Virus record (IMG/VR): IMGVR_UViG_3300032322_002385
Location: 1-30,047 of that record
DNA length: 30,047 bases
Source: a virus
Strand: one strand, 5' to 3'
A program made the position numbers and the translations under genes. Below, piece after piece: positions 4,479 to 28,045 of the stretch. Numbering within the stretch: position 1 is the first letter of the stretch; each line of letters starts with the position of its first letter. The notes beneath the pieces are model-generated. The model made no database searches. It was not told the DNA's origin and worked only from the letters and a program-made list of their open reading frames with translations.

Positions 4479-4554
4479 GGTATTCTTTCAACGCTCGTTG
4501 TGTAAATGTGTAATCGTCTTCGTAGTTGTTGAGACTATTCCAAGCCCATTTCAC
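4447..4554 (-). CDS. Possible 35-residue phage protein
   Basis: Short frame starting at GTG 4554 as K-W-A-W-N-S-L-N-N-Y-E-D-D-Y and continuing with T-Q-R-A-L-K-E-Y-R-E-H-L. The composition looks like a small acidic-basic helical phage protein, not an antisense shadow. It overlaps the kinase/nucleotidyltransferase stop by about 20 bases and the following frameshifted gene by 32 bases. No strong ribosome-binding site is seen, and translational coupling would be needed. Real gene status is uncertain. Confidence 0.35.
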   Translation of the reverse strand: MKWAWNSLNNYEDDYTFTQRALKEYREHLSHKIQP

Positions 4555-5371
4555 GACGGATTTTAGTTGCTGATATACTGTGTGTAGCATCGTCAAAGGT
4601 CTCCTGTTCAATCTTGTAACCCACATCACGGCCATATGTTATATTCACAATATTGGGCACTACCTGTATTTCGTACTGTCCTTGAAATACCGGATCCAAG
4701 TCTCTGCGTATATAACTCTTGACCTGCTCAATAGCAAATGGATTTGATCCTTGCCAGCCCTGGCAATCGCGTATTTGTATAACCACCTGGCCTGTTTTGG
4801 CAATAGCACGTTCAAACAAAGCTCTGTGGCCAGCGTGCCAAGGTTGCCAACGACCCAGCATCTGCACAGTTTCCTTTTGCCAGTCAAAGCTAGGACGTCT
4901 GCGCTGGTCGATGATGTGGCTTCCTATGAATTCTGCCCATTTTTCAGCGTCTTTTTCTGTGACACGGAAGTCATACACTTCGGGAGGCACAAACATCTTG
5001 TTGGTGTCTTCAAATCGTCCCTCTTCAATGGTGTCCATCCATATGGTCCAGTCGGCCTTGAAGTTGTTACGCATTTCGGGTATGGGTGCCACAAAGTCAC
5101 AGATCACATAGTCGGTGTTGGTGGCCAAGGCAAACTCCAGCATGCGCAGACTTTGACGTATGCGTCCTTCCTTTGAAAAGTCCCAGTCGTTGTACTTGCG
5201 ACGCACATCGTCGGCATTGAACCAGGTCACTTCGGCATTGAACCCAGTGATGGGCAACATTTCTCCAAAGTCGGCTCTTGTTGCGTGAGTTTCTAAATAC
5301 TTTTTGAGTGCTTCGGCCAAGTAAGTTTTGCCACTGCCCGGCAAGCCCATGATCAAGATACGTTGTTTCAT
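4535..5371 (-). CDS. APS-kinase-like P-loop kinase fused to a GRFQPxHxGH nucleotidyltransferase
   Basis: 278 aa from ATG 5371, with AAAGGA upstream and an ATGA overlap with the preceding stop. A start at 5431 would add 20 unrelated residues. Domain 1 (about 1-160) has Walker A G-L-P-G-S-G-K-T (9-16) and then F-N-A-D-D-V-R with D-F-S-K-E-G-R-I-R, the APS-kinase/CysC pattern. Domain 2 (about 168-278) has G-R-W-Q-P-W-H-A-G-H (173-182) and I-S-A-T-K-I-R (266-272), the HxGH and ISxTxxR signatures of adenylyl- or cytidylyltransferases such as NMNAT. It therefore probably phosphorylates one small molecule and nucleotidylates another, or the same one. The sulfotransferase-like neighbours suggest activated-sulfate or nucleotide-sugar chemistry. 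An NAD-salvage role (NadR-like) is the main alternative. Confidence 0.75.
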   Translation of the reverse strand: MKQRILIMGLPGSGKTYLAEALKKYLETHATRADFGEMLPITGFNAEVTWFNADDVRRKYNDWDFSKEGRIRQSLRMLEFALATNTDYVICDFVAPIPEMRNNFKADWTIWMDTIEEGRFEDTNKMFVPPEVYDFRVTEKDAEKWAEFIGSHIIDQRRRPSFDWQKETVQMLGRWQPWHAGHRALFERAIAKTGQVVIQIRDCQGWQGSNPFAIEQVKSYIRRDLDPVFQGQYEIQVVPNIVNITYGRDVGYKIEQETFDDATHSISATKIRREMGLE

Positions 5372-6012
5372 TGTGTGTTCCTTTGAAAGTTTTTGGTTAG
5401 TTTGACAGTTTTCATCAACTTGTCGGTCCAATGATGTTCCACTGGTTGGATATATTTTTTGTTTGTGTTGTCCTGGAGAATTTCTTCAAGTCTGGCGTCA
5501 CTGTAGGCAATAGGAAATTCCAGTGTTTTACTTATTTGTCGTAGATAGGCACCTCGATATAAATGCAACAACTCATAACTTAGATAAACAGGATTCCAGG
5601 ATTCTAGTTTTTGGTACTCGTCCTGGGCCATCTCAAAGGTTGACTGGCCTCGTACTCGAGATTCTTGATGTCCTAGGATGTTTTGATCTCGGCCAAGGAT
5701 GGCGATTTTGACACGTAGGCCGCAACCCATGGCCTGTGCCGCAAAGTCCACAATGTTGGGTATGGCCCAACGAGTATCGTCAATGTAAGGACAACTGATG
5801 CTGGTCACATAGTAATCTTTTTTAGACCAATCACGTGTTTTTAGCAGTTCTGGATCTCGCCAACACGCAGCAAAAGGTTCCTGATCGTGTGGGATCCAGT
5901 ATTTGTCCAGCAGAGCTGTCCATCCAGCAACCTCTGGATGCAAGGCAAATATCTTGCTCCACATGTGATTGCCTGATCCCTGCGGACCTGTAAAGATCAA
6001 TAGTTGTTTCAT
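5368..6012 (-). CDS. Sulfotransferase-like protein
   Basis: 214 aa. It opens with M-K-Q-L-L-I-F-T-G-P-Q-G-S-G-N-H, a strand plus P-loop-like segment in the place of the sulfotransferase 5'-phosphosulfate loop. A later K-I-A-I-L-G-R-D-Q-N-I-L-G-H-Q resembles the 3'-phosphate-binding motif with Arg. It shares this architecture with the protein at 6692-7327, which suggests an old duplication. Its stop overlaps the kinase start (ATGA) and its start overlaps the oxygenase-like gene, so all three should be co-translated. The G-S-G-N loop could also bind ATP, so a small P-loop kinase is the alternative. Acceptor unknown. Confidence 0.55.
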   Translation of the reverse strand: MKQLLIFTGPQGSGNHMWSKIFALHPEVAGWTALLDKYWIPHDQEPFAACWRDPELLKTRDWSKKDYYVTSISCPYIDDTRWAIPNIVDFAAQAMGCGLRVKIAILGRDQNILGHQESRVRGQSTFEMAQDEYQKLESWNPVYLSYELLHLYRGAYLRQISKTLEFPIAYSDARLEEILQDNTNKKYIQPVEHHWTDKLMKTVKLTKNFQRNTQ

Positions 6013-6695
6013 ACTGGATATCTAGACGATGGTGAGGCCGCGGCCAGCATTTGACGAGTTTTTTCTGTTTTAAGTCCTGTGACCTGTAACACTGGACGCA
6101 TGTAACGACTAGCATTGGCAGTGGCATGTGGAACATTGGCCCAGTCAAATATGTGACAGTCACCGGCCTGCCAATGTGAATAAGTGTTGGTACCATATAG
6201 ATAAAATTGTCCTGGTTGCCAATCAGTCAACATGATAGTCATGCGTATGATACGTTCTGGATCGTCAGGACAACGTTCATATAATTTGTCTATGTGTAGA
6301 TTGAACATTTGCCCAGGTTGTTGATAATGCATGCGTATCTTGGCATCTTCGATACCAAAATACTCACTCATACGGGTTAGTGTTGGGTACGGGCTGATAT
6401 CAAATACAGCATCGGTTAATTCAAGATCAACAGGGGCTCCAGTCGTGCGTAAATCATTTTCTTCCTGGGCCAACATAGGACTAACTGTATCGTCGTCATT
6501 GCCGTAAAATTTACGTGTGGCCCAAGTTATAGGTCGACCATGTGCCGGGGCAACTTCCTCTGCCCAATCTCCCACAAAGCGACCCAGGACTTGAAACCAC
6601 TCGCCAGGCTGGTCTCGTCGAGAATTATCAAAATGATAACGGCTGTGATCAACACACCACTGCCAACTGCTGTCATAGTCTGCTGGATTTTTCAT
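6009..6695 (-). CDS. 2OG-Fe(II) oxygenase / aspartyl-hydroxylase-like cupin
   Basis: 228 aa. The double-stranded beta-helix iron site is visible: H134-x-D136 in L-H-I-D-K, a distal His190 in V-P-H-A-T-A-N, and an Arg near 200 in M-R-P-V-L-Q-V-T-G that would bind 2-oxoglutarate. The G-Q-F-Y-L-Y-G and W-Q-A-G-D segments fit strands before the distal His. Such proteins hydroxylate or otherwise oxidise amino acids, peptides or small molecules and are frequent in T4-like phages. It lies between two sulfotransferase-like genes with 4-base overlaps on both sides, so it probably belongs to the same modification pathway. Substrate unknown. Confidence 0.75.
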   Translation of the reverse strand: MKNPADYDSSWQWCVDHSRYHFDNSRRDQPGEWFQVLGRFVGDWAEEVAPAHGRPITWATRKFYGNDDDTVSPMLAQEENDLRTTGAPVDLELTDAVFDISPYPTLTRMSEYFGIEDAKIRMHYQQPGQMFNLHIDKLYERCPDDPERIIRMTIMLTDWQPGQFYLYGTNTYSHWQAGDCHIFDWANVPHATANASRYMRPVLQVTGLKTEKTRQMLAAASPSSRYPV

Positions 6696-7327
6696 TGCAT
6701 CTTTCCTTGAAATACTCGCACATAAACATCACTGTCAGGATAGTCCTGATGGTGTGAGTCTGGCGGAGGTGCGATCCTTAAGGTGTCGCACAGGTGTCTG
6801 TTGTTCAAACACATGACTGTGGCCGACTTATTTAATGCAGAGATCATGTCCTGATTCTGCTCCGTGATCCTGCGATGCATCCAGTTCAAGTCTTTGTAAT
6901 ACTCTGCATAGTCAGGATAGGTGATGCCAAAGTGGCCACACCGGACCCACCACCCTAAACAGGCATCATTTGGGCGGTAAACGGTGACTACAGGGCAGTC
7001 GGGCCAGTGTGTTCTGAGAAAGTCCGTGTGATGACAAAACACATGACTTTTAACAATTCGTACTCCTGTTCCACTGAATGGACGATCAAATTCTGCTTCA
7101 CACTCTTCGCGTGTCAGCTGGTCCAGCCGATCAAAATTTTTGCCAAACTCCATGCCAGGATCATAATAAGCACCCAGGTGCATGAGCTCGCGTTGGCCCC
7201 AGGCTTCGTGATAATAGGTTCGTTCATCTGAGTAATCACTCCTGTCAATGTCAGGACTGTAATAAATGTTTTTTACCACCGAGCTCCATTTGGAGCCTGG
7301 TGCACCTGCTACAAAAATATATTTCAA
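6692..7327 (-). CDS. Sulfotransferase-like protein with TTG start
   Basis: About 211 aa. I prefer the TTG at 7327. It overlaps the preceding TctC stop as TTGA, and it gives M-K-Y-I-F-V-A-G-A-P-G-S-K-W-S-S, which aligns from the first residue with M-K-Q-L-L-I-F-T-G-P-Q-G-S of the paralogue at 5368-6012. A GTG at 7360 would add 11 residues. The loop G-A-P-G-S-K-W-S is at the donor-binding position. V-K-S-H-V-F-C-H-H and V-V-T-V-Y-R-P-N-D-A-C-L-G-W resemble the central and 3'-phosphate motifs. Second member of the sulfotransferase-like pair flanking the oxygenase-like gene. Confidence 0.55.
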   Translation of the reverse strand: MKYIFVAGAPGSKWSSVVKNIYYSPDIDRSDYSDERTYYHEAWGQRELMHLGAYYDPGMEFGKNFDRLDQLTREECEAEFDRPFSGTGVRIVKSHVFCHHTDFLRTHWPDCPVVTVYRPNDACLGWWVRCGHFGITYPDYAEYYKDLNWMHRRITEQNQDMISALNKSATVMCLNNRHLCDTLRIAPPPDSHHQDYPDSDVYVRVFQGKMQ

Positions 7328-8289
7328 TTGGGTGTGATCTTTCTTGCGTATGGTTGCCACTTGGTTATCAAACGGCTCATGAAAGCACGCACACCTTCAG
7401 GAGTCTGTTCTTCTTTGACAGTAAACATCAAGTTGTCGTCAAACAACTTCTTGGCTTCGGGACTGTTGATCACAGGCACAAACAATTTATTGTAATAATC
7501 AATCTGCTCACGTGGGGAACCGGGTGGCAACATGATCATCCAGGCAGCATTTACTACTAGACCAGGAACTGATTCTTTCCACAAGGGAACATTGGGAATC
7601 TGTGCTAGACGTTGATCTCCGGCCAGGGCAATGGGTTTGACCTTGCCTGCATCGATCAAGGGCTTGGCAATGGCTATGGGCAGGATACCAAATTCAACCT
7701 GATTGCCGGCCACATCTTGCACTGCTTGAGCTGGACCCTTATAGGTCACTGTTTGAATCAGTTTTTTATCGCCTTTGACATGGTCCATGAGATATTCATA
7801 AACCAACTGATGTGCTGGAGCACCCAGGGCAAAAGTCATGGGTTGCTTGGTGGTTTTGAGACGCTCAATCAACTGTGCTGGAGTATTGGTTTTGCTGCTG
7901 ACGTGAGCTACAACTGCCAAAGGACTTTTGGCGATGGTGGTCACAAACTCCATGTCCATGGGGTTGATTTTCAATGCACCAGGAAACCAAAGGTCTGTGG
8001 CTGTGAACAAGCCCTGCTGACTGGCAATGTAGAGATTCTGTCCGTTTGGTTGCTGTTGTGCAAACCAGTTTACACCCACGCTTTCACCACCACCTGGGCG
8101 GTTTACTACCACAAAGTTGAGATTGGGATTGGCCTTTTCAACCAAGCCGGCTACAATGCGGAAACTGACTTCGTTGCCAGATCCAGGTGCAAAGCCCACT
8201 GTGGCAGTGATGGGTTTGCCTGCAGGTGGAGTCCACTGTGCCCAGGCCAAGGCTGGAACCAATAATATTGCTGCTAGAATACGTTTCAT
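7324..8289 (-). CDS. Tripartite tricarboxylate transporter substrate-binding protein (Bug/TctC family)
   Basis: 321 aa with a clear signal peptide (M-K-R, hydrophobic core, A-W-A cleavage near residue 17), so it should be exported to the periplasm. The mature part starts with P-I-T-A-T-V-G-F-A-P-G-S-G-N-E, the Bug-family N-terminal strand and ligand loop. It then has V-V-N-R-P-G-G-G-E-S and later P-L-I-D-A-G-K-V-K-P-I-A-L-A-G, both typical family segments. Bug proteins bind carboxylates or amides for TctAB-type uptake, and they are most expanded in Betaproteobacteria. No tctA or tctB membrane genes are here, so it would work with host transporters, act as a decoy, or bind something else. AAAGGA lies just before the ATG. 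First gene of the minus-strand accessory operon. Confidence 0.88.
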   Translation of the reverse strand: MKRILAAILLVPALAWAQWTPPAGKPITATVGFAPGSGNEVSFRIVAGLVEKANPNLNFVVVNRPGGGESVGVNWFAQQQPNGQNLYIASQQGLFTATDLWFPGALKINPMDMEFVTTIAKSPLAVVAHVSSKTNTPAQLIERLKTTKQPMTFALGAPAHQLVYEYLMDHVKGDKKLIQTVTYKGPAQAVQDVAGNQVEFGILPIAIAKPLIDAGKVKPIALAGDQRLAQIPNVPLWKESVPGLVVNAAWMIMLPPGSPREQIDYYNKLFVPVINSPEAKKLFDDNLMFTVKEEQTPEGVRAFMSRLITKWQPYARKITPN

Positions 8290-8315
8290 TATAATCCTTT
8301 AAAAAAATTCGCCCT

Positions 8316-8328
8316 ACACTGAAAGTGT
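8316..8328. repeat. Short perfect inverted repeat in the tctC leader
   Basis: ACACT-GAA-AGTGT: 5-base arms and a 3-base centre, 27 bases upstream of the tctC start in the divergent gap 8290-8411. It could be a small hairpin in the tctC leader RNA or an operator half-site pair. It is short enough to be chance. Confidence 0.25.
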
Positions 8329-8355
8329 GTAAATACTTATAGAAAATTTCAACAG

Positions 8356-8384
8356 TTGGTAAATTTTTTACTTTCTGTTATGAT
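8356..8384 (+). promoter_or_regulatory. Candidate sigma70 promoter for the methyltransferase gene
   Basis: TTGGTA (8356-8361) and TATGAT (8379-8384) are separated by 17 bases, giving 4/6 and 5/6 matches to the host sigma70 consensus. The ATG of the plus-strand methyltransferase follows 27 bases after the -10 box. The gap is AT-rich. Moderate support from spacing and position. Confidence 0.4.
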
Positions 8385-8392
8385 TATTTATC
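8385..8392 (-). promoter_or_regulatory. Candidate late promoter (GATAAATA) for the tctC operon
   Basis: Minus-strand GATAAATA matches the NATAAATA late core and lies about 95 bases upstream of the tctC ATG, with no gene between. It directly abuts the -10 box proposed for the divergent methyltransferase gene, so the gap could serve early and late transcription in opposite directions. By-eye motif only. Confidence 0.3.
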
Positions 8393-8411
8393 AACTCTGG
8401 AAAAAATCTCA

Positions 8412-9152
8412 ATGAATACTAAAATTTTTGCACTAATCAAAGAAAATTTGGACACAGCTTTTGCCTTGCCCAAATACGAGAGTGTACGTGACAGCATTGG
8501 AGCTGAAACTGTGGTAGAAGATCTGCCCTGGACTCCGGCTCGCTATCGCAAGTTCAAAGATGCTGTGGAACGTGAACTAAGTTTGCCCTGCGACTATCGT
8601 GGCAACTTGCAAGATATTGTTAATGATCTAAGCGAACGCTACACTCACAGATTTTTTGCCGAAATTTGGAAACCTAGAACTGGTGACTATGATCATTCAG
8701 GCTGGGCCTTGGCCGAATCTATTGCCGCACAAGATCCCAAGTCAGTGCTAGACGTGGGTTGTGGATACCATCCGTTTAAAGGCCGTATTCCTAATCTCAT
8801 AGGAATTGACCCCTACAATAACTGCGCAGATTACGAAGTGGATATCTTAGATTACAAGGTTGCACCCGGCACACATGATCATATTATTGCCCTGGGCTCA
8901 ATCAATTTCAACAGCAGAGAAGATATTGAACAGCGATTTGCACACTGTGTTACATTGTTGGCCCAGGATGGTAAATTTTATCTACGTGCCAATCCTGGCA
9001 TCGCTCACAAGGCCGGACCTTATGTGGATATTTTTCCTTGGTCTTTTGAATTTGTTAACCTGTTGGCCGAAAAGTACAAGTTAAAACTACTAGAATTCAA
9101 ACGTGAACCTGCTGAGCTGGGCCGGTTATTTTTTGTCTATAGTAAATTGTAA
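8412..9152 (+). CDS. Class I SAM-dependent methyltransferase
   Basis: 246 aa. Motif I is S-V-L-D-V-G-C-G-Y-H-P-F (about residues 110-121), followed by L-I-G-I-D-P-Y at the acidic-loop position. The later D-H-I-I-A-L-G-S-I-N-F and L-L-A-Q-D-G-K-F-Y-L-R fit strands 4 and 5 of the Rossmann-type methyltransferase fold. No DNA-methylase DPPY/NPPF motif is seen, so a small-molecule, glycan or protein target is more likely than DNA. It is an isolated plus-strand gene ending in a 16-base convergent overlap with the SGNH gene. Substrate unknown. Confidence 0.75.
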   Translation: MNTKIFALIKENLDTAFALPKYESVRDSIGAETVVEDLPWTPARYRKFKDAVERELSLPCDYRGNLQDIVNDLSERYTHRFFAEIWKPRTGDYDHSGWALAESIAAQDPKSVLDVGCGYHPFKGRIPNLIGIDPYNNCADYEVDILDYKVAPGTHDHIIALGSINFNSREDIEQRFAHCVTLLAQDGKFYLRANPGIAHKAGPYVDIFPWSFEFVNLLAEKYKLKLLEFKREPAELGRLFFVYSKL

Positions 9153-12467: not shown

Positions 12468-13373
12468 TTAAGTTTTTGGACAATTATATTGGCAAGCTGA
12501 CTGTTGATCTAAATTTTGATAAAATCCAATGACCGATTTATCAGCAAGCAACTGGCTGATAGTAGTTTTGGTTATATCGTAACTTTTTTTATTTTTTCCA
12601 AATTGGTTCTTATAATAAAATCTATGGTCAGCCACCCAACAACAGGGTGAATAATGACCGTCTGCAGTGATAAAATGTTCTCGGCCGGTGGTGCACTTGG
12701 GATTGACGTTGAATATGAGATTTTCTTTTTTCCATCTTTCCTTAGAAGCAAATTTTTCTCCAATTAAATTTTTAGATTCAGGCATCAGATGCAAAGTTTG
12801 TTCGTCAAAACGATCACTAGGATCTAGCAAGAAAGTATCCATCCCTAGTTCTTGAGACAGTTTTTTGGCTTGTTCCACAGTTTCTTGATTGTAAGCGAAA
12901 GGAATATATTTCCACACAGTTTTACAGGTGCTGGCAACACAGGTTTCAATGGCGATTTGTATGCTGGGCCAGTCGGCATTTTTTCTATACTGTGTGAAAT
13001 TATCTGGTGTGCCATCTATGCTAAACCGAATAGTGTCTTGACTGTCAAGATAACCAGTTAATTCTTGCCACCAGCTTTGAGATTTATAACTGCCATTGGT
13101 AGTGATCGATATCTGTGTTCCTGCTTGTTTGAGCTTGGCTACAAAATTAATAAAATCACTGTGATATATTGGGTCTCCATAATTTCCACAAAGATCTATA
13201 AGTTTGCCAGAAAGATCAATGTCTAAAAATGACAGCAATGAGTCAATATCAAGATTGTGATTCTTCCAATGCCCGGGCCATTGATTGATAAATCTGGTTC
13301 TGGCACATCCGGCACATTTGAGAGTGCAGATATTGGTAGGTTCTATATGGAACCCAGTGATAGTGTCGATCAT
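12468..13373 (-). CDS. Radical SAM/SPASM-type enzyme
   Basis: 301 aa. The 4Fe-4S-binding C-x3-C-x2-C is at Cys16, Cys20 and Cys23, right after H-I-E-P-T-N-I. Y-G-D-P (65-68) stands at the GGEP position, and T-T-N-G-S is the next strand. Auxiliary-cluster cysteines at 227, 244, 245, 294 and 298 match a SPASM-like C-terminal region, with D-G-H-Y-S-P-C-C typical of it. Such enzymes modify peptides, proteins or small molecules by radical chemistry; the target is unknown. It lies directly after the 13375-13659 small gene and is one of two radical SAM genes in the replication block. Confidence 0.82.
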   Translation of the reverse strand: MIDTITGFHIEPTNICTLKCAGCARTRFINQWPGHWKNHNLDIDSLLSFLDIDLSGKLIDLCGNYGDPIYHSDFINFVAKLKQAGTQISITTNGSYKSQSWWQELTGYLDSQDTIRFSIDGTPDNFTQYRKNADWPSIQIAIETCVASTCKTVWKYIPFAYNQETVEQAKKLSQELGMDTFLLDPSDRFDEQTLHLMPESKNLIGEKFASKERWKKENLIFNVNPKCTTGREHFITADGHYSPCCWVADHRFYYKNQFGKNKKSYDITKTTISQLLADKSVIGFYQNLDQQSACQYNCPKT

Positions 13374-13374
13374 G

Positions 13375-13659
13375 CTAAGAAGTTTTGTTGATATCTTCTT
13401 TGGATATTTCGTGTCCGTTTTCCTGGAACAGGCGTTCTATGGTGGCCGCATAGTGTTGATAGTAATAGCCGACCACAGTGTCCCAGTCCTTGTTGGCCGT
13501 GATTCCGGCCACGCTGCATAGCAATACTCGTTGTTCCTTGAAATCCAAAATCACATTGGTCATTTGCCAATCTCGAGGCCTAAGTCGCTTGGTAATGGTC
13601 ATCACTTCGTCAATCTTGCCTGAAGGTTTGGTGTAATAGGTCAATAGTAGATATCTCAT
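13375..13659 (-). CDS. Conserved small T4-like phage protein
   Basis: 94 aa from ATG 13659, whose ATG overlaps the upstream radical SAM stop (ATGA). It starts M-R-Y-L-L-L-T-Y-Y-T-K-P-S-G-K-I-D-E. I recall this family in T4-like cyanophages close to the clamp-loader genes. Predicted beta-rich N-terminus and helical C-terminus; no catalytic motif. It is not recognisable as gp62. Its placement between two radical SAM genes suggests those were inserted around an older replication gene. Confidence 0.65.
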   Translation of the reverse strand: MRYLLLTYYTKPSGKIDEVMTITKRLRPRDWQMTNVILDFKEQRVLLCSVAGITANKDWDTVVGYYYQHYAATIERLFQENGHEISKEDINKTS

Positions 13660-14795
13660 ATGTGATATTTTTCCATAATAGAATGATAAGTTGATAAATC
13701 TTTGGCTTTGGGAGCGCACAAACCACACAAACACTTGTATTTTTTACACTGTATCACAGGCAAAGAATCTGTATCAAGTTGGTCACGCAACGTGGTCAAA
13801 ATTTGTTGGGCATTGTTGAGCGTGCCAATAGGACCAACCTGGCCATCAAAATTCATTTTACAGTCTTTGTTGACAAACACTTCTCCGTTGACCTGCTTGA
13901 CATAAAGGAAAAAATGATTAACGCTGCAATACCAGTCAGGAAATTTGTTTTCCACGTAAAAGTGTCTTTGTTTGTAATTTTCGTCGGCACAGAATTGCCG
14001 CCCTCCACAGCAGGCCCGACCCACATCGGTCAGATGTGCATCGGTGCTGACATCCAACAAATCCGTTGATTTGCCATGTGTTTTGGTTTTATAAAATTCA
14101 TCAAACCACTTGACCTGATTTTGTTTGTAATTTCTAGGACCATCAGAACCTACGTTGCCATCCAGTTGCTTGGGCAACACTCGAATGTTGTTATGGGTCA
14201 ACCAGTCAATCATGCCCACTGCATCTTTAAAAAGTTCGGTCTGTTGATGCACGAGTACCACACATTTTTGTCTGACACCGGCCCCGGCAATGGTTAATAG
14301 ATTGTCTTTGAATTGTTGTTTTTGTTTGTCGGTGCTTTCAGTATGATAGCTTACTGTGAATTCGTCAATCAAAGGTATAATTTTCTGTAATTTTTTATCA
14401 GATACAATGGCATTGGTAGTGGTGGTCACAGTCAAGTGCCAACGGTCACTGTATGGTTGATATTTTGTTCTAACTTGACTCAGTATGTCAACAATGTTGG
14501 GATGATGTAGGCTTTCGCCTCCGTACACATTGAGTACCACGTATCTAATGCCTTTGGGTTTGGTGCTCATGTACAGATCCACATACTCGAACATGAAATC
14601 CAAGGTTTCTAGACACTGGTCCAAGGGCGGATGTGGCGTGGTATTATCATGGCCACCATAAGTGCCACTGGGACAATAACTACAATCTAGATTGCATTTC
14701 ATTGTGAGTTCCCAATCCAGCAGAAATGTGATACGATTGTTGGGATCTACTGCAGGTTCTAATGTTTCAAACTGCGATGTAGTTACAGCTGACAT
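13656..14795 (-). CDS. Radical SAM enzyme with cysteine-rich C-terminus
   Basis: 379 aa. The core C-x3-C-x2-C is Cys34, Cys38 and Cys41, in M-K-C-N-L-D-C-S-Y-C-P-S. Y-G-G-E-S (91-95) is the GGEP-like motif and T-T-T-T-N-A follows. The C-terminal half has cysteines at 262, 263, 269, 290 and 312 and a terminal C-x4-C-x-C-x2-C (350-360), enough for one or two auxiliary Fe-S clusters (SPASM/twitch type). It begins 13 bases inside the 3' end of the clamp-loader gene, so it is expressed with the replication genes. A modified peptide or protein substrate is likely but unidentified. Confidence 0.82.
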   Translation of the reverse strand: MSAVTTSQFETLEPAVDPNNRITFLLDWELTMKCNLDCSYCPSGTYGGHDNTTPHPPLDQCLETLDFMFEYVDLYMSTKPKGIRYVVLNVYGGESLHHPNIVDILSQVRTKYQPYSDRWHLTVTTTTNAIVSDKKLQKIIPLIDEFTVSYHTESTDKQKQQFKDNLLTIAGAGVRQKCVVLVHQQTELFKDAVGMIDWLTHNNIRVLPKQLDGNVGSDGPRNYKQNQVKWFDEFYKTKTHGKSTDLLDVSTDAHLTDVGRACCGGRQFCADENYKQRHFYVENKFPDWYCSVNHFFLYVKQVNGEVFVNKDCKMNFDGQVGPIGTLNNAQQILTTLRDQLDTDSLPVIQCKKYKCLCGLCAPKAKDLSTYHSIMEKYHI

Positions 14796-17045: not shown

Positions 17046-17441
17046 TTATCTTTCTTGTTTGGCCACATGCACCGCTGTGCTCATGGTATCGTCTTGTGGA
17101 CGTTCGTCGCTATCTGCGATTAACAAGATATCGTTAGGATCAATTTTTCGTATGGTGCGTTTGTGATGCTGTTGTCCGTCTTCAATGTCGATGCCACGAG
17201 TCCAGCGACCGTGTGCAACTAAAATCCATTGTCCTACCTTGACATCCTTTTGATCCTGGCCTACTGCATACACTCGACCCCAACGAGGACGTATGCCCAG
17301 GGTGGTGCCGTTGTCGTTGGGCAAGATCAAGCCGCTCTGTGTGATGCGTGTATCAAATTCCATGTCTGAAACTATAACGTTGTCATGCAGGGCTTTGATT
17401 TGTTCTTGACGGATTTGATGGGGTGCAAATGCTGATTTCAT
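17046..17441 (-). CDS. GroES-like co-chaperonin
   Basis: 131 aa. I-K-A-L-H-D-N-V-I-V matches the GroES opening I-R-P-L-H-D-R-V-I-V. T-Q-S-G-L-I-L-P matches the mobile-loop GGIVLP segment, followed by G-R-V-Y-A-V-G, K-V-G-Q-W-I-L-V and D-I-L-L-I-A-D near the end. T4 gp31 and other phage co-chaperonins pair with host GroEL to fold the capsid protein. It has about 17 extra N-terminal and 20 extra C-terminal residues compared with GroES. A beta-barrel protein of other function is possible. It lies in a run of small conserved genes with a 6-base gap to its upstream neighbour. Confidence 0.7.
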   Translation of the reverse strand: MKSAFAPHQIRQEQIKALHDNVIVSDMEFDTRITQSGLILPNDNGTTLGIRPRWGRVYAVGQDQKDVKVGQWILVAHGRWTRGIDIEDGQQHHKRTIRKIDPNDILLIADSDERPQDDTMSTAVHVAKQER

Positions 17442-24828: not shown

Positions 24829-25155
24829 TTAGTAGGGGCTAAAACTGCTGCCACATCCGCATGTGGTCTGGGCTTGTGGATTGTTGATGGTAAAACTGGC
24901 ACCCATGACATCATCTCGGTAGTCCACAACAGCACCTTGTAGATAACCTCCGCTCATGCTGTCGACCAGCACTTTTACACCAGAGATTTCCAGATCCCAG
25001 TCATCTTCGTTTTGGGTTTCATCCAGGGTGAATCCGTAGCTCATTCCGCTACACCCACCACCCTGCACAAATACACGCAGTTTGAGTTCAGGATTGTTTT
25101 CTTCGGCCAGGATATCTTTGATTTTGGCCACTGCGGATTCGGTTACTGTGATCAT
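24829..25155 (-). CDS. A-type Fe-S cluster carrier (IscA/ErpA/SufA-like)
   Basis: 108 aa, the family's usual length. The three ligand cysteines are all present: Cys35 in G-G-C-S-G and Cys99/Cys101 in the terminal [15 protein letters not shown] is a family signature near the end. These proteins accept Fe-S clusters and hand them to apo-enzymes. No scaffold (IscU) or desulfurase (IscS) is encoded here, so it would draw clusters from the host. It is the last gene of a group with SOD and a radical SAM enzyme. Its ATG overlaps the HNH endonuclease stop. Confidence 0.92.
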
Positions 25156-25625
25156 ATTTTCTCTCTTGGCCAGGCACTTGCCTTACCACCCTTTATCATT
25201 TTAGTTACCACAGAATTGAAATGCCTTTGTTTATTCTGTTCAGGAGTCAAGGCAAAAATCCCTGTGCGATGTTTTTTTGCGTATGCTCCACCTTTTTTGC
25301 CTCCAACTGATCCTGCTCTAGAAGCATGTCCTAATTTGAATCCACATTTTCTTTCGGCATTATTCTTAACTGCTTGAGCTCTACTTAATTCCGATCTTTC
25401 TTGATAACTGATTCCTGCTCGAACTGCGATCAAGGCAGCTGCGGCCTTGTCGCCTTGATTCTTATGAATGTGAAAGTGTTCGAGTGCAGTTACAGGCGTT
25501 AAATTTTCAATAGAATTATTTTTTGAGTTGCCGTCAATGTGATGAATTTCAATAAAAGGCAACAAGCAACACCGGTAGTGTGCTTCGTAAATTTTTCTGT
25601 GGATTTTAGAATTTTTGCGTTTCAT
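25152..25625 (-). CDS. HNH homing endonuclease
   Basis: 157 aa from ATG 25625. The HNH core includes [12 protein letters not shown] and [15 protein letters not shown], the usual HNH pattern. The C-terminal half is basic with short N-x-E/G-x-K repeats suited to DNA binding. I chose 25625 because a late-promoter box and a hairpin abut it exactly; a frame running to 25682 would overlap the SOD gene. It sits free-standing between sod and the IscA-like gene. It probably cleaves the same junction in related phages and spreads by homing. Confidence 0.82.
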
Positions 25626-25641
25626 CTCGTGTTCCCACGAG
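25626..25641 (-). promoter_or_regulatory. RNA hairpin abutting the HNH start codon
   Basis: Minus strand CTCGTG-GGAA-CACGAG, a perfect 6-base-pair stem with a GNRA-type loop, followed at once by the ATG. The GGGA that would serve as ribosome-binding site lies in the loop and the top of the stem, so translation should be restrained. T4 homing endonucleases such as I-TevI use similar hairpins. Confidence 0.65.
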
Positions 25642-25649
25642 TATTTATG
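25642..25649 (-). promoter_or_regulatory. CATAAATA late-promoter-like box before the HNH gene
   Basis: Immediately upstream of the hairpin and immediately downstream of the sod stop. A T4-type late promoter here would start RNA inside the 5' arm of the hairpin and free the ribosome-binding site late in infection, as known for some T4 homing endonucleases. Confidence 0.5.
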
Positions 25650-25650
25650 T

Positions 25651-26205
25651 TTACAATCTTTCGTTGCAAACATCCCAGTCAATGATCCGCCAGATATTGT
25701 CTAGGTATTTCTCTTTGTCCCACTTGTAGTCGAGAGCAAATGCGTGCTCCCACCAGTCAACCAGTACACAAATATCTGTTCTAACCTGATGGTTTGGTAT
25801 TGTTTTAATTGTGCCTGTAGTGCTCAAATAAATCCAGCCCGAACCTTGTATTTTCATGGCTGTTTCTTTGAAAGCCTGTTTGAAATCTTCATAGGTTTTG
25901 AAATTTGATTCTATGAGTTCTAGCACAGCACCGCGAGGACGATTGGCACCCTTGGGCGGTTTCAGCTGTGGGAAAAACTTGTTGTGCAAGAAACTGCCTG
26001 CACGGTTAAAGTCAGCATTGCCCTCACCGGCATTGTAGCGTTTGGCATAGCCCTTGGCTAGATGCCCGTAATGATAGTTGATGCTGTCTTTACTCAGCAC
26101 CGGTTCCAGATCCTTTTCACCATAGGGCAAGGGCGTGGTTTCCAGCTTGGCCGGACGAGTAGTAGCTTCTAGCAGGTCTAGATCGTGTCTTATTGTGTGA
26201 TGCAT
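25651..26205 (-). CDS. Fe/Mn superoxide dismutase
   Basis: 184 aa from ATG 26205. The four metal ligands can be placed: His45 in Y-H-Y-G-H-L, His74 in S-F-L-H-N-K-F-F, and Asp150 and His154 in V-D-W-W-E-H-A-F. Y53 is a candidate for the second-sphere tyrosine. L-P-Y-G-E-K-D-L-E-P-V-L and G-S-G-W-I-Y-L are family signatures. It has about 24 extra N-terminal residues and is shorter in the middle than E. coli SodB. It removes superoxide, which damages Fe-S clusters; that fits the IscA-like and radical SAM neighbours. Fe or Mn preference cannot be told. Phage Fe/Mn SODs are uncommon. Confidence 0.85.
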   Translation of the reverse strand: MHHTIRHDLDLLEATTRPAKLETTPLPYGEKDLEPVLSKDSINYHYGHLAKGYAKRYNAGEGNADFNRAGSFLHNKFFPQLKPPKGANRPRGAVLELIESNFKTYEDFKQAFKETAMKIQGSGWIYLSTTGTIKTIPNHQVRTDICVLVDWWEHAFALDYKWDKEKYLDNIWRIIDWDVCNERL

Positions 26206-26210
26206 AAGTG

Positions 26211-26218
26211 TATTTATG
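26211..26218 (-). promoter_or_regulatory. CATAAATA box before the SOD gene
   Basis: Minus-strand CATAAATA, 5 bases before the SOD ATG, with the TAA inside it serving as the stop of the preceding SGNH gene. Same box and same spacing as before the 10357-10938 gene. Promoter function would give a nearly leaderless mRNA; coincidence with the stop codon is possible. Confidence 0.3.
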
Positions 26219-26912
26219 CTTTTAGTGCCTGAGCATAAGTATCTACCCACAAGTCACAAGCGGCCTTGTGAGCATCTTCAAGTGGGTGCAATCCCGGATC
26301 GGTCACCTTGAATCCGTGTTTATGGCTCCAATCTAAAAAAGTCAATCCTTCAAAAGTTTGTAAGGATTCCTTAGTAAGGTCCTGTAGAGTTTTAATATAG
26401 TCAGGTGCATGCCAGGTTATGTCCCACATTTCGGCATCCATGTAAGTTTGAATACTGGTCACGTTGAGATGTTTTAAAAACTGTTGAGAAGAATAAATGG
26501 TCTGCAAGGTTCTAAACTTGTCCCATAAGGTGCTGTAGCCAGGATACTTGTTGTAAAACTCCAATACCTTTTCGGCTTCTTGAGATCCAATCAGTGGTGC
26601 CAACTTGGCTGGCACACAACTTAGACCTAGAGTGGTCCAGATTTCCTTTTCAGGAATATAAAAATCCCAACGGGCTCCCCAGGTCCAGTTAATTACAGCC
26701 AGCACATTGTCGCCGGGATTATTTGAAAAATAGGTTAGGATTTGACGACTAATATTTTCATTGCCACATCCAGGCACAGCCATAGTCTGATACTCAACTC
26801 CTAATTGGTTTGCCGCTTGGCCTATCCAACTTAATTTTCCATTACTATTGTCGGCAAGTTCGTTGCCAAAAACAAAGCTGTCGCCAAACCCAACTATTTT
26901 TGTTTTCATCAT
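26214..26912 (-). CDS. SGNH-hydrolase-like protein
   Basis: 232 aa. Block I is G-F-G-D-S-F-V-F-G (Ser12), the Asn segment is V-P-G-C-G-N-E-N, and D-P-G-L-H-P at 205-210 holds the probable Asp and His209. It is a paralogue of 9137-9799, sharing F-V-F-G, the G-N segment and H-P-L-E-x-A-H. Here the Asp is four residues before the His, not three. ATG 26912 overlaps the upstream radical SAM stop (ATGA), so the two probably work on the same substrate. Confidence 0.7.
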   Translation of the reverse strand: MMKTKIVGFGDSFVFGNELADNSNGKLSWIGQAANQLGVEYQTMAVPGCGNENISRQILTYFSNNPGDNVLAVINWTWGARWDFYIPEKEIWTTLGLSCVPAKLAPLIGSQEAEKVLEFYNKYPGYSTLWDKFRTLQTIYSSQQFLKHLNVTSIQTYMDAEMWDITWHAPDYIKTLQDLTKESLQTFEGLTFLDWSHKHGFKVTDPGLHPLEDAHKAACDLWVDTYAQALKA

Positions 26913-28045
26913 TGTGCCTCATATAATGTTAAATGATTTTCACGCCTAATCTGATTAAGGGTTTGATTATATAACTGACTTCTTTCCCACAATTTTATAT
27001 CAAATTTAGCAGATGCAATCTGAGCAATTAGACCGGTTAACATGTTTCTTTGCTCGTCATCCAAATCCAGTGCCAAACAAGATTCTAAGTAATCTATTGC
27101 CAATGGTAGTAGTTCTTCTGATAAATTATCGGCCGCTAAATGATATGGGCGTTGACAAACAAAAAATTGATGGCGACATCCTAGATCGCCATGCCGTCCA
27201 CTGGGTGTGACACTAAGGTGTTGCATACGTCTACCAAACTCTAGCAAAGGTTTTATTGCAAAAACTGTTAAATTAGACACAACAGAATTTATATCCAAAC
27301 TGTTGGCATGATGTGCCAACCAAGCCACATTCCGTTCGATTACTGCCCAGTTTGATCCATGTCTGACAATTTCAGCAGCTGTACCGACCGCATCAATGCT
27401 CACAGTCCAATGTAGATTTGGCAATTGCTCGGTTATTTCAAACCAAAAATCATCTTGAAAACTTGCATTTGAAGTGATCATAACCATTACATCTTTATGG
27501 TCTTGTTTGATTTTCTTGATAAGTTCCCGAACCCCAGGGATTACAGTGGGCTCACCACCGGTAAACATGATTCTTTTCAACGATCCTAGGTTACGCTTAA
27601 TCCAATCTACGTTAACATCTGTAACTGATACGGTTTTGCCTGCGGGCGGATTTCCAAAAAACTGTTGTAATTCAGGGTGATTGTTAATTTCTTGAGCTAT
27701 GCCATGACTGAATACTGGATTACAACTACGACATTTAAAATTGCAAATGTTGACTGATCTAAAATCTATAAAATCAAGTTCGGTATTGGTAAACACTTGA
27801 TGATTGTAATCTCTGTTGCTGTTGATTCGTAAACTGGTGCCATACGCAGACTCGTGTTTAACACATGCTTGACATACCTTGGGAGTATTTCCGTTAAGTA
27901 ACTCTTGTTGTAAATTTAATAGTTCTGGATGCGCAAGCCATTCGTCTAACGATACTTGATATCTTGGAGTTTGGCAACACGCTGATATACCTGTGCTGTC
28001 AATGTAGGCATGCCTAAATGGCAGTGGGCAATACCAGTCAGACAT
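26909..28045 (-). CDS. Radical SAM enzyme with N-terminal SPASM/twitch-type cysteine region
   Basis: 378 aa. Order of parts: an N-terminal region with Cys6, Cys23, Cys24, Cys58 and Cys61 (C-P-L-P-F, then A-C-C, then C-Q-A-C), the radical SAM C-x3-C-x2-C at Cys101, Cys105 and Cys108, and G-G-E-P at 163-166 with I-T-S-N-A next. The auxiliary-cluster region comes before the radical SAM core, as in the twitch-domain radical SAM proteins I know from bacteria and phages. These often sit near glycan or peptide modification genes. It starts 2 bases after the IF-1 stop and overlaps the SGNH start. Substrate unknown. Confidence 0.82.
   Translation of the reverse strand: MSDWYCPLPFRHAYIDSTGISACCQTPRYQVSLDEWLAHPELLNLQQELLNGNTPKVCQACVKHESAYGTSLRINSNRDYNHQVFTNTELDFIDFRSVNICNFKCRSCNPVFSHGIAQEINNHPELQQFFGNPPAGKTVSVTDVNVDWIKRNLGSLKRIMFTGGEPTVIPGVRELIKKIKQDHKDVMVMITSNASFQDDFWFEITEQLPNLHWTVSIDAVGTAAEIVRHGSNWAVIERNVAWLAHHANSLDINSVVSNLTVFAIKPLLEFGRRMQHLSVTPSGRHGDLGCRHQFFVCQRPYHLAADNLSEELLPLAIDYLESCLALDLDDEQRNMLTGLIAQIASAKFDIKLWERSQLYNQTLNQIRRENHLTLYEAQ

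Follow-up and report, generated by a model that had tools for sequence, protein, structure and literature searches.

A phage-specific TctC/Bug solute-binding protein in a recurrent enzyme cassette of uncultured giant phages

The gene heading a small operon on a viral DNA fragment encodes a TctC/Bug solute-binding protein, and this TctC is real, widespread and specific to phages, a variant within a known family of proteins, located in a conserved uptake-like module. The fragment, hereafter the window, is the whole 30-kb stretch that was analysed (30,047 nucleotides, IMG/VR record IMGVR_UViG_3300032322_002385). The original prediction had regarded a Bug gene in such a phage as unexpected. The observation itself is confirmed, real and well beyond chance, but the gene was not captured once and lately from some donor, since it belongs to a virus-specific clade within a recurrent cassette.

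The TctC protein and its operon in the window

The TctC reading frame is intact, with an ATG at 8289 and a TGA at 7326-7324 on the minus strand, and its product matches the Pfam family TctC (PF03401) with an E-value of 1.8e-19, scoring 70.8 bits where the family cut-off is 27. Its sequence matches among solved structures are Bug/TctC-family proteins, including Bug27 (1e-19) and BugE (2.1e-16). The AlphaFold2 model has a mean pLDDT of 94.9 and a pTM of 0.90, and when it was compared with known structures using Foldseek and VIA-align, BugE came out on top (Z 38.4, 1.7 A across 294 residues). The model was also placed with terephthalate-binding proteins, AdpC, BugD and MatC, and every Bug/TctC entry ranked above the next group of folds (Z 17). 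On this model, the entire mature protein is predicted to have the two lobes of the Bug-type periplasmic binding fold. The N-terminus (MKRILAAILLVPALAWA, followed by Q) resembles a Sec signal peptide when read by eye, and a hydrophobic run with an A-x-A-like site was detected by a simple pattern in 63 of the 66 distinct TctC relatives. The prediction of an entire Bug protein whose start resembles a signal peptide was right.

The first pincer loop distinguishes the phage protein from its bacterial counterparts. The family motif P-F-x-A-G-G-x-x-D, described as almost ubiquitous in Bug/TctC proteins (PMC5812351), reads G-F-A-P-G-S-G-N-E in the window, where the F, one G and the terminal acid are retained, the second G is replaced by S and the D by E. 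The form PG[SA]GNE was found in 63/66 distinct phage loci, a count that is partly built in because this motif was among the search seeds, compared with [PA]GGxxD in 11 of 13 bacterial proteins. Judged from these sequences, the phage pincer appears to be a lineage-specific variant of the motif rather than a loss of it.

Table 1. Features of the TctC locus in the window (positions are those of the window).
Feature	Coordinates	Strand	Basis
TctC/Bug solute-binding protein, 321 aa	7324..8289	minus	Heads operon; PF03401, BugE fold, 12 syntenic orthologues
Signal-peptide-like N-terminus, residues 1-17	8239..8289	minus	Read by eye; conserved in 63/66 distinct relatives
First pincer loop FAPGSGNE, residues 33-40	8170..8193	minus	Phage variant of family motif P-F-x-A-G-G-x-x-D
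Divergent intergenic stretch, AAAGGA ahead of TctC ATG	8290..8411		Sequence
SAM-methyltransferase-like, divergent cassette partner	8412..9152	plus	LDVGCG motif (alignment A4); homologue at most 5 ORFs away from TctC in 62/66 loci
Sulfotransferase-like, likely TTG start 7327 (ORF open to GTG 7360)	6692..7327	minus	Sulfotransfer_3 in relatives, start overlap
2OG-Fe(II)-oxygenase-like	6009..6695	minus	H134, D136, H190, R200
Second P-loop gene, sulfotransferase-like	5368..6012	minus	Conserved in related loci; name from P-loop motif and context only
Kinase and nucleotidyltransferase fusion, likely ATG start 5371	4535..5371	minus	APS_kinase 2e-6, KTI12 5.5e-7, phrog_10255 kinase 4e-49

TctC leads the operon of sulfotransferase-like and oxygenase-like genes, as had been proposed, because AAAGGA precedes its ATG and its stop codon is overlapped by TTG 7327 of the sulfotransferase-like gene, the position at which relatives of that gene begin. 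Sulfotransfer_3 was matched by 12 of the 18 members of this neighbouring family (best 5.9e-5), the window member not being one of the 12, and the sulfotransferase fold matches are weak (E 0.005 and weaker); its identity as a sulfotransferase is modest. In the oxygenase-like gene, the HxD...H iron triad and the downstream basic 2OG-binding residue are invariant across 17 members, and its profile matches are weak. The putative methyltransferase is named from its LDVGCG motif, and the second P-loop gene gave no Pfam match. The kinase/nucleotidyltransferase gene likewise belongs to the operon. In the window, no T4 late promoter (TATAAATA) was found, the promoter scan, including the divergent intergenic stretch, was near background, and the terminator scan was below it.

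Phage identity, distribution and recurrence of the cassette

The clamp loader of the window is T4-like, which agrees with the T4-like phage setting originally suggested, and its nearest sequenced phages are Pseudomonas giant phages of the PA5oct group (51%). Using the clamp loader to search viral contigs, 80 relatives were kept, with identities of up to 95% and contigs of up to 364 kb. The cassette around TctC exists in the form found in the window and in a permease-bearing sister form. Among 24 large contigs covering both forms, the T4-type capsid protein Gp23 was present on 15 and terminase on 12, and Gp23 was absent from all 14 cellular genomes used as controls, which identifies the carriers of both forms as phages. 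No tRNA was found in the 30-kb window. Elsewhere in the window, three radical-SAM-type genes were seen from PHROG matches (12468-14795 and 26909-28045), and reading by eye suggested a GroES-like co-chaperonin ORF (17046-17441) and a row of ORFs (24829-26250) that resemble an IscA/ErpA Fe-S carrier, an HNH protein and a superoxide dismutase.

An alignment of 12 syntenic TctC copies (A1) was the source of motifs for the collection scans. With it, 286 confirmed relatives were obtained from viral contigs. In the genomes of 84,980 bacterial and archaeal species none was confirmed; the motifs of that scan resembled those used on the viral contigs without being the same, and remoter bacterial kin lacking them would have escaped it. 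Single-sequence seed scans with the window protein confirmed no relative in either the viral or the genome collections, and the clade was found only by means of the family alignment. In a maximum-likelihood tree, 28 phage TctC proteins form one clade (100/100), which recurs in 99% of bootstrap trees and whose stem measures 1.09 changes per site, separate from 10 other TctC proteins of the same giant-phage group and from the bacterial side of the tree, which is small and consists of 13 plasmid-borne proteins. Pairwise dN/dS values of the phage TctC proteins were between 0.05 and 0.21, indicating purifying selection.

In 11 related loci, TctC occupies the same place next to a methyltransferase homologue and, mostly, a sulfotransferase-like homologue as well, and its identity to the window protein is 38-43%, while many of the neighbouring genes reach 60-97%. 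The contrast is sharpest in one close relative (L002), where the clamp loader is 95% identical, the sulfotransferase-like gene 60%, an SGNH gene 44% and TctC 42.5%, so that the TctC stretch is either exchanged or diverging much faster than its surroundings. The cassette order is methyltransferase (divergent), then TctC, sulfotransferase and 2OG-oxygenase. Within five ORFs of TctC in the 66 distinct phage loci, homologues of the methyltransferase were found in 62, of the sulfotransferase-like gene in 54 and of the oxygenase in 29, and the outer flanks vary among these loci. The exact 4-nt overlap between the TctC and sulfotransferase-like genes was present in 19 of 27 tandem pairs. A plasmid search with the methyltransferase and the sulfotransferase gave no match, nor did the methyltransferase match any phage record, and the source of the cassette was thus not found.

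Further TctC genes are frequent in window-type phages (29 matches in 18 contigs), and a near relative of 337 kb (G001) carries five. At one locus of this relative (L111, 5168-7880), the genes for the two subunits of a Rieske ring-hydroxylating dioxygenase come immediately after TctC; these subunits are 56-60% identical to plasmid proteins, mostly of Burkholderiales (Achromobacter, Paraburkholderia, Variovorax and Acidovorax), with the Sphingobium salicylate 5-hydroxylase NagG as the one named match. By sequence, this pair appears to be a phage TctC beside an enzyme for aromatic acids. As the adjacent TctC groups with a Cupriavidus protein (92/85) and the dioxygenase resembles those of Burkholderiales, these genes hint at possible hosts in Burkholderiales.

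Several other genes were noted in the related phages. DctP-family (TRAP) binding proteins, apparently lacking a signal peptide, occur in giant phages at L107 (9056-10012) and L110 (6420-7367), and no upstream start was found for either gene; at L107 (6613-11413, in G027), TctA-like, binding-protein-like, DctP and MFS transporter genes lie in a run. Additional TctC or TctA genes are adjoined by members of a protein family that has no Pfam match, is about 380-400 aa long and shows an SGGxDS PP-loop-like motif (L110 4188-5330, L112 13530-14738, L113 1975-3126, L117 4285-5466 and L107 5399-6610). Recurring beside TctC in both forms are a Peptidase_C26 class-I glutamine amidotransferase and a gene whose diiron matches (RNR small chain, AurF) are weak (L114 7417-8665, L253 199-1447 and L151 9254-11532). 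Genes for a mandelate-racemase/muconate-lactonizing-type enzyme and a nitronate monooxygenase lie near additional TctC genes (L117 7369-8448 and L110 7965-8921).

A sister form of the cassette with the TctA permease

The membrane partners had been predicted to be missing, and neither TctA nor TctB lies beside the window TctC. TctA is present in three relatives. In two of these it sits within the cassette together with a divergent TctC, which matches the A1 profile over the first lobe at 95.7%. Searching with this divergent TctC yielded 59 viral contigs, of which 53 have TctA at the same locus, nearly always as the direct neighbour, and most of the remaining 6 loci stop at a contig edge. Homologues of the methyltransferase (47), the oxygenase (42) and the sulfotransferase (35) are also found near the divergent TctC in these 59 contigs. 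TctB is poorly conserved, and its profile (PF07331) had no match in 16 relatives, the three with TctA among them. The proteins encoded between TctA and TctC differ: a barrel-like protein of 185 aa at L220, and a glutamine amidotransferase of 183 aa at L253. The outer-membrane-barrel-like gene is in this position at both L220 (5433-5990) and L221 (4129-4686), and L274 (3000-3554) has a distant relative (27%) of this barrel/porin-like gene near TctA-TctC.

The two forms largely exclude each other. None of the 18 large contigs of the window type had TctA, and of 18 permease-type contigs only 1 had a strong window-type TctC, where contigs of either set may be incomplete. The lone match among phage records (MT836965, 24%) comes from a faecal scaffold, flagged UNVERIFIED and without annotation, on which the TctC is lipoprotein-like and TctA is also matched; it was rejected as probable DNA of bacteria. 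Other 'phage' records with TctA matches appear equally doubtful, one of them being a 691-kb Salmonella record.

Proposed function and comparison with known systems

We consider it probable that the window protein is a phage-specific, long-maintained TctC acting in uptake, which supplies its ligand to the host TctAB system, with the cassette enzymes handling that ligand. TctC would be produced in the infected cell and pass into the periplasm, where it would most likely capture a small organic acid, putatively a carboxylate, between its two lobes and hand it to a host TctAB-type permease, redirecting uptake to a substrate preferred by the phage. The sulfotransferase-like, 2OG-oxygenase-like and divergent methyltransferase proteins may then use or modify the ligand or its product; because the enzyme calls are weak, this link rests on gene neighbourhood. 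The lack of a TctB match and the deviation of the phage pincer from its bacterial counterpart (D to E, GG to SG or AG) also count against the uptake reading. Window-type phages are mostly without TctA, so that host TctAB would most likely be used, and the absent permease is no obstacle, because orphan Bug proteins are the rule in Bordetella, where they share few permeases (PMC5812351). In sister phages, an equivalent enzyme set travels with its own TctA and a divergent TctC. A broader reading, which we hold tentatively and somewhat short of an even chance, is a virus-specific uptake-and-modification module of T4-related giant phages with two forms, one with an orphan TctC taking over host TctAB and the other with its own TctA (rarely together with an outer-membrane barrel) and a divergent TctC, in which the shared methyltransferase, sulfotransferase-like and oxygenase proteins process the imported acid.

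Three roles had been offered originally for the protein: dependence on host TctAB, its redirection to another substrate, and a decoy or receptor mask. The host-TctAB option is the best supported of these, since the sister form carries TctA itself, and no finding speaks for the decoy or mask. As a decoy, receptor mask or superinfection factor, TctC would occupy a permease or receptor or sequester a signal without transport. Rapid exchange of the locus among near relatives, as seen in the identities of TctC and the clamp loader of L002, would fit a gene in such a conflict, but purifying selection, the conserved pincer loop, the recurrent enzyme cassette and the permease-bearing sister form fit uptake better, and we regard this role as quite improbable. 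A signalling role, in which ligand-bound phage TctC engages a host sensor kinase and alters host expression or uptake during infection, has a precedent in BctC, which binds the sensor BctE as well as BctA (PMC5812351), and would suit the absence of TctA from all of the large window-type contigs. However, the pairing of the divergent TctC with TctA in most sister loci points to transport, and no sensor gene was present in the loci read, which leaves signalling unlikely.

It is similarly unlikely that TctC is a passenger in an accessory block that is exchanged together, serving nutrition in a way that has nothing to do with the neighbouring sulfotransferase, methyltransferase and oxygenase. The wide variation of further genes at the locus and the different enzymes adjoining other TctC copies of these phages would agree with this; yet the methyltransferase and sulfotransferase persist in most loci despite changing outer flanks, the 4-nt overlap is usually kept, and the same partners recur in the permease-bearing form. 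The idea that a host Bug gene was misjoined to the phage contig, through faulty assembly or contaminating bacterial DNA, would fit the abundance of such genes in bacteria and the nature of the window as a 30-kb fragment. Against this, the gene order is shared with the 11 related-phage loci and most of 80 further loci, TctC overlaps its neighbour gene, the motif scan found no bacterial genome with the clade and large contigs carry the T4-type capsid. The chimera that had been named as grounds for rejecting the prediction therefore fails, as TctC and its neighbours recur in the same order on dozens of contigs; at the family level this reading is refuted, and for the window it is extremely improbable.

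Known auxiliary genes of phages are mostly single enzymes or binding proteins for a single nutrient such as phosphate. That many uncultured giant phages carry their own TctC, usually beside the same enzyme genes, suggests that uptake by the infected cell is reprogrammed. If this is true, the phages would decide which organic compounds an infected cell takes in, a view based on the widespread virus-only clade, up to five TctC-family genes per genome, purifying selection, the recurrent enzymes and the permease of the sister form. The ligand of the phage TctC would name the pathway.

In the open literature (most subscription papers being outside the search), we found no description of a phage TctC of this kind, its cassette, its distribution or the permease-bearing form. 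Entries with the same fold exist in UniProt for uncultured Caudovirales phages (A0A6J5T247 and others) under the automatic names 'PBP2_Bug_TTT domain containing protein' and 'Bordetella uptake protein', and the best of them (39% identity, TM 0.93) is probably a member of the window clade. Roux et al. (2014, PMC4164917) reported a tctA domain hit on a SUP05 virus contig, and their study also counts a 2OG-FeII oxygenase among auxiliary genes; the tctA hit concerns the permease part of the same transporter family as a single domain hit, with no TctC, cassette, clade or distribution described. Marine cyanophages encode PstS, a periplasmic phosphate-binding protein thought to raise uptake via host membrane parts (PMC6359870), which differs in belonging to an ABC-type phosphate system without a permease-bearing sister form or such an enzyme cassette. 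Compared with bacterial TctC/Bug proteins (BugE 2dvz, BugD 2f5x, TphC 7nds, AdpC 5oei and MatC 6hke), the phage protein shares the predicted fold (Z 36-38), the Pfam family, the signal-peptide-like start and, as seen in Burkholderiales, its place as an orphan gene next to genes for enzymes. It differs from them in its low identity (20-24%), its virus-specific clade, PG[SA]GNE in place of [PA]GGxxD, and its fixed cassette partners.
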